Positions 17,614 through 54,602 of a DNA stretch of 64,000 nt are shown piece after piece (position 1 is the stretch's first letter; the number at the start of each line of letters is the position of its first letter). The notes below the pieces were generated by a model. The model was not told where the DNA came from. It made no database searches and was given only the letters and a program-made list of their open reading frames with translations. Position numbers and translations under genes: made by a program. The stretch is from a virus, in IMG/VR virus record IMGVR_UViG_3300042567_000628, positions 1 to 64,000 of that record. The stretch is one strand, 5' to 3'.

Positions 17614-17642
17614 TTGACTTTTGTTAAGAAATACAGTATAGT
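17614..17642 (+). promoter_or_regulatory. Sigma70-type promoter, leaderless
   Basis: TTGACT (17614-17619), 17 bases, TATAGT (17637-17642). Six bases later is the ATG at 17649, where transcription should begin. Confidence 0.75.
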
Positions 17643-17648
17643 ATTAGT

Positions 17649-18845
17649 ATGACAAAATTTTCTTGTGTAGAAGATCTATTAGTTGAATTTTATAATCAGA
17701 CACTGTTTGATATAACAATCTTGCAAGATCAAGATCGTGCTGCCATACATGGATTCTATAATACACTAGATCTCGGTAATCAATTAACTGCTAATCAAGG
17801 TGGTTTTTTACTGAAAATTCTGTCCAAGTACAAAACGTTTGCCAACAGTCTCGGCATAGATTATGGCACGTTGATAGACACACCTATATGGAAAACCACC
17901 TTTAGAAAATTAGATCTTACTAGAAAAATATTTGTAGAACAGTCCGAAGAGGGTGAGATCACAGTGTGTTTAAAATTTCCATATGCATTGAAAGAAGCCT
18001 TCGAAAAAGAATTTCATACTGAAAATACACCATACAGTTCCAACACCTGGGACAGTGATAGAAAACTGCGTGTGCTAAATGTTTACAAATATAATATCAT
18101 ACAGCTTGAAGAATTTTGCAGAAAGCATGACTTTGAACTTGATGACACTTTTCTCACGTTGGTTGACACAGTGGCAGAGATTTGGGATCAACAGGATCAA
18201 ATTATCCCCTGTGCATATATCACAGCTGGTGAATTAGTGCTGTGTAATGCCACTGAAGATGCAGAACTATTTTATCAAAAACACAAACAGGATGATATAG
18301 ACCAAAATATATTCTTGGCCAAAAGCATGGGGTATCCTACTCGATTTGATCGACCAATAGAGACCAAACTTGAGGTTATCTGTTCATCTAAATCAAGATT
18401 TTTTTGGATGAAATCTAATAGAGATTTCTTTGACCTTTACAAGCAGGTCGATGGGATTGTCTGTGTGTTAATTGATCGCAATACTCAAGACAGCATTGAT
18501 TGGTTGCAAAAATTTGTCGAGTCTGCTGATATTGCCGGTATACCAAGATCAGATATCAGGGTGTGTTTTCGAGACCCCACTGAAAAGAAATCTCAGCTAA
18601 ATGCATGGATCAAAGACAACAATCTTGGTGGTAAAGTTCAAGAAGGTAAAATACTTATATTCTTTCATAAACCCCCTAAGTGGTTGTTTAAAGACAACAT
18701 TGATGTTAAAATAGTTGTAACAAATAGCTACACACCAATCAACGAACCCACTTCATCTGTGTGGTTAGATACTCATCCTTGTGTGTGTTATTTGAGTGAC
18801 ATAAAACCAACTCCTACAAGGAAACAGAAAATTGTCAGTTTGTAA
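17649..18845 (+). CDS. Unrecognised protein encoded upstream of uvsW (possible HARP-like segment)
   Basis: 398 residues, no enzyme motif I recognise. Residues about 105-160 (FPYALKEAFEKEF, then W-x2-DRKLRVLNVYKYNIIQLEEFC) resemble loosely the HARP domain that accompanies fork-remodelling helicases such as SMARCAL1. The gene overlaps uvsW by 14 bases, so both are made from one mRNA. The ATG has no ribosome site and is exactly 6 bases after a sigma70 -10 box, predicting a leaderless transcript. The HARP suggestion is weak. Confidence 0.7.
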   Translation: MTKFSCVEDLLVEFYNQTLFDITILQDQDRAAIHGFYNTLDLGNQLTANQGGFLLKILSKYKTFANSLGIDYGTLIDTPIWKTTFRKLDLTRKIFVEQSEEGEITVCLKFPYALKEAFEKEFHTENTPYSSNTWDSDRKLRVLNVYKYNIIQLEEFCRKHDFELDDTFLTLVDTVAEIWDQQDQIIPCAYITAGELVLCNATEDAELFYQKHKQDDIDQNIFLAKSMGYPTRFDRPIETKLEVICSSKSRFFWMKSNRDFFDLYKQVDGIVCVLIDRNTQDSIDWLQKFVESADIAGIPRSDIRVCFRDPTEKKSQLNAWIKDNNLGGKVQEGKILIFFHKPPKWLFKDNIDVKIVVTNSYTPINEPTSSVWLDTHPCVCYLSDIKPTPTRKQKIVSL

Positions 18846-20286
18846 ACTAGTGATTCGAGATGAAGTTAATATCAAGTTGGAAGGACTCAGTGTTGAAACA
18901 CGGCGTAAAATTGTTAACAAATTGAAATTTGATCTACCATATGCCCGACACATGCCATCATACAAACTGGGTCGATGGGATGGTACAAAAACCTATTTTA
19001 GCATCGGTGGTACTGGTTATCTTGCACACCTTGATGTTATATTGCCCATCGTAGAAGAAGCTGGATATGAAATAGATATTGAAGATCAACGACATCACAC
19101 CAAGATAGAATTTGCTCCTATAACAGAAAACTACTGGGCAGACAAGGGCAAGACATGGCCCAAGGGGCATCCTGAAGCAGGAACTCCTATTGTACTTCGT
19201 GATTATCAATACGACGTTGTTAACAAGTTTTTAGAAAACTCACAATCATTACAGGAGGTAGCTACAGGTGCAGGCAAAACAATTACTACAGCGACATTGT
19301 CGCATCTTTGTGAGGCGTATGGGCGTACGATGGTTATTGTTCCGAACAAATCTCTTGTTGTACAAACTGAAGAAGACTACAAAAACCTTGGACTAGATGT
19401 GGGTGTATACTTCGGCGACAGAAAAGAATTAGGTAAGACGCACACTATCTGCACCTGGCAAAGTCTTAATGTACTCGATAAGAAAAGTTACGATGACGAA
19501 GTGTTATCGTTAGCTGAATTTACTGCTGGAGTATCTGCAATTATTATCGATGAAGTTCATCAGGCCAAGGCAGAAGTGTTAACGAAATTGTTGACACAGA
19601 ACTTTAGCAACTGTGCTATACGATGGGGACTCACGGGAACTATTCCCAAAGAAGCATGGGAATTTCAAGGCATCCTTGCCAGCATCGGACCAGTTATCAA
19701 TCAGGTATCGGCACATGACCTACAGGAGAAGGGCGTTCTAGCACAATTACAAATTAACATTTTGCAAACCAACGAAGTACAGGAATTTAGAAGTTTTGCA
19801 GACGAATATGCATTTTTGGTCACCGACGATTCTAGAATTACTTGGATGGCAAATAAAATACAATCACTAGCTTTAACAGGAAATACTCTAGTGTTAATCA
19901 ACAGAATTGACACTGGGAATAAATTGATTGAGCGCATACCGGAAGCTGTATTCGTTAGTGGTGGAATGAAGCTAGGCGATAGGAAAGAAGAATATGACGA
20001 GATTAAAACAAGTGATGGTAAGATTATTGTGGCGACTTATGGTGTGGCCGCTGTGGGTATTAATATCCCTAGGATTTTTAATTTGGTTCTTGTGGAGCCC
20101 GGAAAGAGCTTTGTCCGAGTTATACAAAGTATTGGGCGAGGCATTAGAAAAGCGCAAGACAAAGACCACGTTGAAATCTGGGACATAACTTCACAGTGCA
20201 AATATTCCAAACGACATCTCACTGAACGAAAGAAATTTTACAAAGAGGCCAAGTACCCCTTTACAATTACCAAGGTATCCATATGA
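18832..20286 (+). CDS. uvsW: UvsW-like DNA/RNA helicase
   Basis: 484 residues (T4 UvsW 587 including UvsW.1). SF2 helicase that regresses stalled forks and unwinds R-loops. Walker A ATGAGKT (144-150), DEVH box (240-243), LTGTIPK (motif III) and QSIGRGIRK (motif VI) are intact. An N-terminal domain precedes the helicase core, as in T4. I chose the TTG at 18832 because AAGGA lies 9 bases upstream; a GTG at 18850 is the alternative. Confidence 0.9.
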   Translation: MSVCKLVIRDEVNIKLEGLSVETRRKIVNKLKFDLPYARHMPSYKLGRWDGTKTYFSIGGTGYLAHLDVILPIVEEAGYEIDIEDQRHHTKIEFAPITENYWADKGKTWPKGHPEAGTPIVLRDYQYDVVNKFLENSQSLQEVATGAGKTITTATLSHLCEAYGRTMVIVPNKSLVVQTEEDYKNLGLDVGVYFGDRKELGKTHTICTWQSLNVLDKKSYDDEVLSLAEFTAGVSAIIIDEVHQAKAEVLTKLLTQNFSNCAIRWGLTGTIPKEAWEFQGILASIGPVINQVSAHDLQEKGVLAQLQINILQTNEVQEFRSFADEYAFLVTDDSRITWMANKIQSLALTGNTLVLINRIDTGNKLIERIPEAVFVSGGMKLGDRKEEYDEIKTSDGKIIVATYGVAAVGINIPRIFNLVLVEPGKSFVRVIQSIGRGIRKAQDKDHVEIWDITSQCKYSKRHLTERKKFYKEAKYPFTITKVSI

Positions 20287-20789
20287 AAATTTTAACCCTA
20301 AACAATAGATCTTTTGATCTAAACGAATTGCCAGATGAGGTAGACGAAGACACTAGATTTTCAGTATTAGATAATTCCAATCCTAACGAACCAGATTTCT
20401 TTTTTATGCCGTTGATATTTTTGGAATCATTTAACTCGCCTGCTATATTATTAAGTGTGGGAGGTTATGAAGTACAAATGCCACTAGACTGGTGCATGAT
20501 CGTTGGAGATCGAGATTGTGGACTAGACCCTGAAGTTTTGCCCCTGACCAGCCTAAATGAACGTGGATTTGATGCATTTATTTTTAATCCCATAAATGGA
20601 TTTAAATGTGAGTATATGCCCATTGAAATAGTAAATATCTATCAAGACGTGAGATGGTACTTTCCTAAAATGAAAAACGGACAATTACTCACTGTGCCAT
20701 TGCATGATGGTCCTAGTCCGCCATGTGCATATTTTGTTAAAGAAATCAGTAGACAGAGCGAAATTTTACAATTAGATAAGGTTATTTAA
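20283..20789 (+). CDS. Unrecognised protein after uvsW
   Basis: 168 residues with an acidic N-terminus, an aromatic middle (FFFMPLIFLESFNSPAILL) and a DVRWYFPKMKNGQLLTVPL block. Looks soluble and folded. ATGA overlap with uvsW shows co-translation. No family assigned. Confidence 0.75.
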   Translation: MKILTLNNRSFDLNELPDEVDEDTRFSVLDNSNPNEPDFFFMPLIFLESFNSPAILLSVGGYEVQMPLDWCMIVGDRDCGLDPEVLPLTSLNERGFDAFIFNPINGFKCEYMPIEIVNIYQDVRWYFPKMKNGQLLTVPLHDGPSPPCAYFVKEISRQSEILQLDKVI

Positions 20790-20790
20790 A

Positions 20791-54115: not shown

Positions 54116-54134
54116 CTGCTGTACTATTAATGTT

Positions 54135-54212
54135 TGGTGGGCCCCCCGTGAGTCGAACACGGCACCAACGGATTATGAGTCCGCTGCTCTAACCAACATG
54201 AGCTAGAGGCCC
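54135..54212 (-). tRNA. tRNA-Met (CAT)
   Basis: Minus strand: acceptor GGGCCTC/GGGGCCC, anticodon loop CTCATAA (CAT), T-arm CCGTG-TTCGACT-CACGG, encoded ACCA. Lacks the GGG/CCC anticodon-stem pairs of initiators, so elongator Met, or Ile if C34 is lysidine-modified. Confidence 0.92.
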
Positions 54213-54219
54213 GATAATC

Positions 54220-54567
54220 TTATGATTCTTTATAGCCCCTTAGGAGTTCTGAATCTTCTGGATCCGCAGCCAGTGCGCCTGCTGCTACGAAACGGTGCAG
54301 ATCTTCCATTTTTTCTGCGAATACCTCAGGGCATGATGCTGCTGCTCGCTGCATGTCCCAGTCTGATGGATAGTGACGCAGCATGCTTCGGGCCGTGTCT
54401 CGGACCAGTTTAGGTACTCTAGGTGTATGTTCTCTATTGCAAAGATCCAATAGGAACCTTCGGGTCTGTACTACAGCACGGTATCTTTCATCTGGTAGTG
54501 TCATAATAGTTGCGTTTGATAGTTGCACAGGATCTCTGCTTCTAGATAGCAGTCTTTTCTTCAGCAT
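54220..54567 (-). CDS. BPSL0761-like protein
   Basis: 115 residues. MTLPDERYRAVVQTRRFLLD, RDTARSMLRHYPSDWDMQ and the C-PEVF block match the BPSL0761 family of small Burkholderiales proteins. The first 21 residues are an extension; the ATG at 54567 is 6 bases after a -10 box. It leads the transcript into the three tRNAs. Suggests gene exchange with betaproteobacteria. Function unknown. Confidence 0.75.
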   Translation of the reverse strand: MLKKRLLSRSRDPVQLSNATIMTLPDERYRAVVQTRRFLLDLCNREHTPRVPKLVRDTARSMLRHYPSDWDMQRAAASCPEVFAEKMEDLHRFVAAGALAADPEDSELLRGYKES

Positions 54568-54573
54568 GTATAT

Positions 54574-54602
54574 ATTATATGATCGTTACACGTTCTTGTC
54601 AA
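54574..54602 (-). promoter_or_regulatory. Early sigma70-type promoter, leaderless
   Basis: TTGACA, 17 bases, TATAAT, then ATATAC and ATG at 54567. Also expected to transcribe the tRNA genes. Confidence 0.88.

Follow-up and report, generated by a model that had tools for sequence, protein, structure and literature searches.

A group of T4-related jumbo phages very probably expresses a fixed set of its genes from truly leaderless mRNAs, using both early-type and late promoters. The stretch of DNA studied here, which we call the window, comprises the first 64 kb of the 70.6-kb IMG/VR virus record IMGVR_UViG_3300042567_000628, and in it several genes have a start codon lying so close behind a promoter that transcription would begin at the A of the ATG. 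The case is read from sequence: it draws on promoter geometry, the absence of Shine-Dalgarno (SD) motifs, conservation of the gap between promoter and ATG, coding from the ATG onward, and restriction of the pattern to this group. The placement of the 5' end at +1 would follow from promoter geometry, and we infer that the host translates such messages efficiently. An earlier note on this window had predicted leaderless mRNAs from sigma70-type promoters; those sites stand, but the note missed the late half of the set, which is about four times as large (137 late versus 36 sigma70 genes in the genomes described below).

Sigma70-type promoters that end at the start codon

Replication genes of T4-like type are present in the window, with a UvsW-type helicase encoded at 18832, a primase resembling gp61 at 25153 and a helicase of the DnaB/gp41 kind at 27845. 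The minus strand from 36.7 to 54.6 kb holds an array of small genes with near-perfect sigma70 promoters of the form GGTTGACA-17-TATAAT. Most array promoters are followed by a leader of 23-34 nucleotides (nt), of the type ACACATACACACAAAGGAGCG, and then by ATG, mostly with AGGAG or GGAGCG in the leader. The ATGs at 17649, 25153, 40405, 53680 and 54567 differ in both respects: all five lie exactly 6 bases past the -10 box, and no SD motif precedes any of them. The earlier note had given this spacing, the missing ribosome sites and the contrast with the other array leaders correctly, and the set does include, as it said, the primase gene and the gene paired with uvsW. Its sixth site, 27231, fared less well; the TATAAT and the 7-base gap are there, but a clear sigma70 promoter is not. 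The sites and genes are as follows.

17614..17651, plus strand: sigma70-type promoter, TTGACT-17-TATAGT-ATTAGT-ATG (-35 at 17614-17619, -10 at 17637-17642, ATG 17649, gap 6)
17649..18845, plus strand: 398-amino-acid protein, function not assigned, predicted leaderless, directly upstream of the UvsW-like helicase gene (18832-20286)
25118..25155, plus strand: sigma70-type promoter, TTGACA-17-TATACT-GTATGT-ATG (-35 at 25118-25123, -10 at 25141-25146, ATG 25153)
25153..26175, plus strand: DNA primase, 340 amino acids, predicted leaderless (PHROG 47, T4 gp61-like)
27194..27233, plus strand: weak promoter (-10 TATAAT at 27218-27223, 7-base gap, ATG 27231; -35 TTGCAA poor, spacer 18)
27231..27848, plus strand: 2OG-Fe(II) oxygenase-like protein, probably leaderless, a weaker case
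40403..40440, minus strand: consensus promoter, TTGACA-17-TATAAT-ACACAC-ATG (-35 at 40440-40435, -10 at 40417-40412, ATG 40405)
40175..40405, minus strand: 76-amino-acid small membrane protein, DUF6552-like (match below cut-off)
53678..53715, minus strand: promoter, TTGACG-17-TATAAT-AGACAC-ATG (-35 at 53715-53710, -10 at 53692-53687, ATG 53680)
53342..53680, minus strand: 112-amino-acid protein, no family match, predicted leaderless
54565..54602, minus strand: consensus promoter, TTGACA-17-TATAAT-ATATAC-ATG (-35 at 54602-54597, -10 at 54579-54574, ATG 54567)
54220..54567, minus strand: 115-amino-acid protein, function not assigned, first gene before a tRNA-Met/Arg/Leu cluster (54212-53928)

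Scanning the window for TTGACA/TATAAT with at most 2 mismatches and a spacer of 17 gave 39 promoter-like sites. Open reading frames (ORFs) of at least 60 amino acids that begin with ATG start five times at offset 6, never at 5, 7 or 8-17, and 20 times at 18-36. From base composition about 0.1 such starts would be expected at any one offset, and P is about 4e-6 for four or more in 27 promoters. The same gap recurs when six whole genomes are pooled, with ATG-ORFs counted 4/19/5 times at offsets 5/6/7, 7 times in total at 8-17, and in a broad hump at 18-35. To look across the group we collected 80 loci through the primase (down to 43% identity) and 80 through the 53680 protein, and removed duplicates before counting SD motifs. 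These occur in 0/152 ORFs at offset 6 versus 261/277 at offsets 26-34 (Fisher P ~1e-98), the 152 being weighted towards the primase and 53680 families because the loci were gathered through those two leaderless genes. The six-genome counts, and the late-promoter and five-genome ortholog tests given below, are less prone to this bias, with the genomes themselves still reached via the primase. The start codon is ATG in 167 of the 170 ORFs at offsets 5-7 in these relatives. A collection-wide scan for TTGACA-N17-TATAAT-N6-ATG found, among the matches listed, at least 86 offset-6 ATGs that open an ORF of at least 60 amino acids, and only 3 of the 86 have an SD.

Conservation of the gap

The earlier note took the constant gap as a sign of selection and proposed looking for it in relatives, where it is indeed retained. 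Leaderless ortholog pairs have the identical offset in 90.5% of 2290 cases (at most one base apart in 99.9%), versus 19.3% of 2853 leadered pairs. Both boxes (-35 and -10) are near invariant within the 53680 family, where no position in them exceeds 0.12 differences per pair. The spacer is free to vary, as are most of the six bases of the gap, with differences in about one third to three quarters of pairs; it is therefore the length of the gap, not its sequence, that appears to be selected. A promoter with a gap of 5-7 bases and no SD is kept in nearly all primase and 53680 relatives. For the primase, a leaderless start is predicted in all five genomes (5/5) and in 40 distinct relatives whose promoter is strong, and the spacing is retained even among primase relatives at 43% identity. 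The 53680 family is predicted leaderless in 51 distinct loci, with gap 6 in 49 and gap 5 in 2. Like retention is seen in the families of 17649 (gap of 5-6 bases in nearly all relatives), 54567 (gap 6 in 29/33 relatives) and, more weakly, 27231 (gap of 5-7 bases). Two relatives, L042 and L044, share the predicted leaderless start of the 40405 gene, and some others do not. Sequence comparison thus indicates that gap length is held by selection over deep divergence.

A larger class behind late promoters

The most enriched word upstream of genes in G001, a 353-kb relative (IMGVR_UViG_3300044640_001495) whose primase is 100% identical to that of the window, is ATAAATA, the T4-type late box (18-fold). 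Across four genomes, ORFs of at least 80 amino acids have their ATG 4-8 nt past NTAAATA 120 times, versus 14 times at 9-16 nt; the counts at 4/5/6/7/8 are 29/54/13/15/9, so that the peak is at 5. The T4 late box is 8 bp long and begins at -13 (PMC2988020), and an offset of 5 would therefore put the A of the ATG at +1. With the late class defined by an exact TAAATA box, in-gene ATGs at 3-8 nt number 43 in G001, 32 in G008, 21 in G003, 26 in G004 and 17 in G005. Permuted motifs of the same composition served as control (ATAAATN was dropped because it contains ATAAATA) and gave means of 9.5, 10.8, 8.7, 7.4 and 3.4, respectively; no permutation reached the observed count, and, set against the observed counts, the means put the share due to chance at roughly 20-40% in each genome. 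SD motifs precede 6 of the 139 late-box leaderless starts in these five genomes, of which G003 and G005 are probably incomplete. TAAATA boxes also stand 17-40 nt upstream of SD-led genes.

Homologs of gp55 are found in G001, G003, G004 and G008 (E 3e-6 to 7e-4). A gp55-type late sigma together with a NATAAATA-type late box, and gp41/gp61/UvsW-like replication genes together with a large terminase, are the features that place the group in the T4 superfamily. One divergent pair of late genes, at 261136/261111 in G001, has 24 bp between its ATGs and two overlapping late boxes, one per strand, and four genomes retain it; the window pair 7903/7859 resembles it. The late-box genes of the window are these.

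7891..8631, plus strand: 242-amino-acid protein (TAAATA 7891-7896, gap 6, ATG 7903), divergent partner of 7859
7224..7871, minus strand: 211-amino-acid protein (TAAATA 7871-7866, gap 6, ATG 7859)
29501..30221, plus strand: 236-amino-acid protein (TAAATA 29501-29506, gap 4, ATG 29511), late-leaderless in G005 and G008 too
40835..41172, minus strand: 108-amino-acid protein (TAAATA 41172-41167, gap 5, ATG 41161), conserved in G003
56050..56674, plus strand: 204-amino-acid protein (TAAATA, gap 4, ATG 56060), conserved in G003
56731..57131, plus strand: lipoprotein-like, 129 amino acids (TAAATA, gap 5, ATG 56742), conserved in G003 and G005
59345..60125, minus strand: peptidase (PHROG 5304), 256 amino acids (TAAATA, gap 4, ATG 60115)

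Uncertain candidates are the minus-strand ATGs at 33995, 55954 and 54771/54767, which lie 4-8 nt past a late box within a longer frame or a short ORF.

Genome-wide extent and gene content

With genes taken from simple open-frame calls, 173 of the 1455 genes (12%) in the five large genomes are predicted to be leaderless, 137 late and 36 sigma70, totals that depend on the box-match rules. The trait follows the gene: a leaderless gene has a leaderless partner in 265 of 359 ortholog comparisons (74%), versus 12% overall. Late members of the predicted set encode structural proteins, among them a neck protein and one resembling the tail tube, as well as the large terminase; DnaJ, the primase and a QueE-like enzyme belong to the set too. 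For 27 of the 173 genes the free DNA upstream exceeds 100 nt, which rules out compaction as the sole cause. In many DnaJ relatives (L396-L457) the -35 TTGACA forms the loop of a terminator-like hairpin whose T-run fills the promoter spacer, and the leaderless ATG follows directly behind the hairpin, about 6 nt past the -10.

Are the ATGs true starts?

Several lines of sequence evidence indicate that the predicted leaderless ATGs are true translation starts. The leaderless DnaJ matches the Pfam DnaJ model from its residue 2, which aligns to model position 1, and in a DexA-like protein the exonuclease domain starts at residue 4. Among the leaderless ortholog pairs, 238 of 265 align from the ATG onward, and 122 of the 173 genes have no longer reading frame upstream. 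Between close relatives, codon position 3 accounts for 0.52 of the differences over codons 2-15 in the 53680 family and for 0.90 in the primase.

In a number of small early families (L103, L105, L107, L111, L144, L149, L156) the +1 ATG is in frame with an SD-led downstream ATG, and the SD-bearing leader is read as codons (e.g. MLTKERTM...). Such families could have a dual start, or they could represent a transitional state between leadered and leaderless.

Alternative explanations

Some observations weigh against leaderless expression. As many as 52 of the 173 leaderless ATGs, the primase included, lie within 15 nt of the end of an upstream gene on the same strand, and at these genes readthrough mRNA with translational coupling could therefore supplement leaderless initiation or take its place. 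A recognised SD is also missing from about half of the late genes that have a leader, and for some genes SD-less initiation with a leader may exist. Use of the +1 ATG is also not required in the small early families that have an SD-led in-frame ATG as well.

The most direct challenge is that the AT-rich box is itself an mRNA signal, an SD-less landing motif for the ribosome or S1, and that transcripts begin farther upstream. The late boxes have no -35 partner, SD can be replaced by AT-rich leaders, and the SD-less leadered late genes just mentioned fit this idea as well. What makes it very improbable is that at the early-type sites the -35 TTGACA is conserved together with the -10 at 17 bases while the spacer drifts, which is the signature of a promoter, and that TAAATA placed 17-40 nt ahead of SD-led genes acts as a promoter there. 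In addition, 45 leaderless genes have a divergent neighbour, so that an upstream promoter would have little space, and in the pair described above the ATGs are 24 bp apart. Initiation on an SD-less A/T-rich leader implies an unstructured leader of at least 15 nt, and the box-to-ATG distance leaves none if the predicted promoters are used. Coupling on a readthrough operon mRNA, with the promoter merely adding message, would suit the primase and several late genes that begin close to an upstream stop codon. But it does not predict a fixed distance from box to ATG, it is inapplicable to divergent genes and hardly applies to DnaJ behind its terminator-like hairpin, and as a general explanation we consider it very unlikely. 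Chance, or a gene-caller artefact in AT-rich DNA, has in its favour that TATAAT-like words are common and that PA5oct, at 33% GC, has 611 TAAATA words. Yet permuted motifs give no late-box excess, nor do T4, Syn9, PA5oct or the Salmonella phage Munch, and orthologs share the trait far more often than genes do overall. We therefore regard chance as refuted statistically and scarcely credible for the set, while the single genes 27231, 33995 and 55954 could each be chance.

If leaderless expression is indeed what these promoters serve, host sigma70 would act at the early-type promoters, with RNA polymerase starting at the A of an ATG set 6 bases past the -10, and the phage gp55-type sigma would act at NTAAATA, starting at the A of an ATG set about 5 bases past the box. 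A 70S ribosome or an IF2-30S complex would then initiate on the 5'-terminal AUG without SD pairing, as for lambda cI. Since leadered, SD-led genes are served by both promoter types as well, the phages would use two modes of initiation. The likeliest benefit may be compact, self-contained promoter-to-AUG units, small enough to fit within a terminator, the last stretch of an adjacent gene or the 24 bp between divergent genes; independence from anti-Shine-Dalgarno competition with host mRNA might be a further one.

Translation-related genes of the phages

We find it tempting to ask whether the phages' own translation genes favour leaderless initiation. Ribosomal protein bS21 is encoded in G001, G008, G006, HTVC008M, PA5oct and SCTP-2, and in G001 the next gene downstream of it is that of a predicted leaderless exonuclease. 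We treat the link with leaderless genes as an association only, because Atu_ph07 and Phosso also carry bS21 and their primases look leadered. Initiator-like tRNA-Met(CAT) genes with a 1.72 mismatch (C.A or T.T) are present in four genomes.

L293:4155-4230, G001: initiator-like tRNA-Met(CAT)
267021-267094, G004: initiator-like tRNA-Met(CAT)
194516-194589, G008: initiator-like tRNA-Met(CAT)
270167-270243, PA5oct: initiator-like tRNA-Met(CAT)

Hallmarks of initiator tRNA are the 1.72 mismatch, the A11:U24 pair and three G:C pairs in the anticodon stem. The G001 tRNA has the A11:U24 pair and is without the three anticodon-stem G:C pairs. A review (PMC9031893) reports a strong stimulation of leaderless translation by additional initiator tRNA. 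Kasugamycin, according to another paper (PMC5230787), does not block translation of this kind. Phage bS21 or the initiator-like tRNA may favour leaderless translation, and either is a hypothetical cause of its use. Going further, one might imagine a dedicated leaderless programme of conserved early and late genes, aided by both and bypassing anti-SD competition or an SD-targeted shut-off of translation; we hold this tentatively and think it rather doubtful. A search for RegB, whose cutting at GGAG leaderless mRNAs would escape, gave no match, and the control search was silent too.

G001 has 32 tRNAs, and ARAGORN also reports a transfer-messenger RNA at L291:4882-5318 (a starred entry) with the tag ANADTFDFSAMSFTGNTVSGKSKVALAA. 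On the minus strand of the window, a perfect sigma70 promoter (-35 at 38622, -10 ending at 38594) is followed by about 320 nt without an ORF. The RNA of 38270-38588 is predicted to fold better than its shuffles (z -2.8, -90.6 kcal/mol), a long helix closing the structure; it has no Rfam match and is a candidate for a new structured non-coding RNA. A very acidic Asp/Glu/Tyr repeat peptide is encoded after an SD at 35220-35360, also on the minus strand.

Significance and comparison with known systems

Leaderless mRNAs of phages are usually seen as isolated curiosities, and here about one gene in eight is predicted to be leaderless, under two unrelated sigma systems, in a T4-related group that occurs in many metagenomes. 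Because leadered and leaderless genes stand in one promoter array, the array offers a built-in control for when SD-free initiation is favoured. The pattern also bears on the annotation of gene starts in metagenomic phages, and it touches on the role of the bS21 and initiator tRNAs that phages encode. DNA and protein searches found no close relative of the window among named phages. As to the host, the 53680 protein had no relative in the bacterial genomes searched, and the sole match through bS21 was one distant contig of a metagenome-assembled genome. Culturable entry points are PA5oct, which grows on P. aeruginosa PAO1, and HTVC008M, which infects HTCC1062.

The earlier note had called systematic leaderless translation unusual for T4-like phages, and in the genomes tested it is: T4 has none, Syn9 at most one and Munch none. 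T4 late transcription (gp55/gp33/gp45 at an 8-bp TATA box; PMC2988020) shares with this group the late box and the gp55 homologs. T4 itself, unlike the group, shows no excess of ATGs 3-8 nt past the box (5 versus a permuted mean of 9.2); in the Pelagibacter phage HTVC008M the excess is moderate (14 versus 6.5). PA5oct resembles the group in that a perfect promoter places +1 exactly on its primase GTG, and its exonuclease gene has the ATG at offset 7, but it differs in being without the late-promoter class; in Salicola phage SCTP-2 the primase ATG likewise falls 6 nt past a weak -10. Huge phages that encode bS21, S1 or initiation factors and have few SD sites (PMC7162821, PMC9723584) share bS21 and SD-less starts with the group. 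Leaderless starts go unmentioned there, whereas in the present group the lack of an SD goes together with promoter geometry. One paper notes that phage transcripts often have no leader, though it finds leaders of 26-491 nt in phage AR9 (PMC5312081). Our literature search, of incomplete coverage, brought up no account of leaderless genes as a systematic feature of T4-like or jumbo phages. The closest single-gene parallel is lambda cI (PMC9031893), which also has a 5'-terminal AUG, no SD and a sigma70-type promoter that runs up to the start codon; that is one regulatory gene, whereas here tens of genes per genome are predicted, under early and late promoters and including terminase and primase. 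Mycobacteria (PMC4633059) offer a parallel in scale, since leaderless and SD-led genes coexist genome-wide, but there the genome is cellular and the maps are experimental, while ours concern lytic T4-related viruses and are predicted from sequence. Leaderless mRNA is thus already well known, and what appears to be new here is its predicted genome-scale use with two sigma factors in a lytic T4-related lineage.

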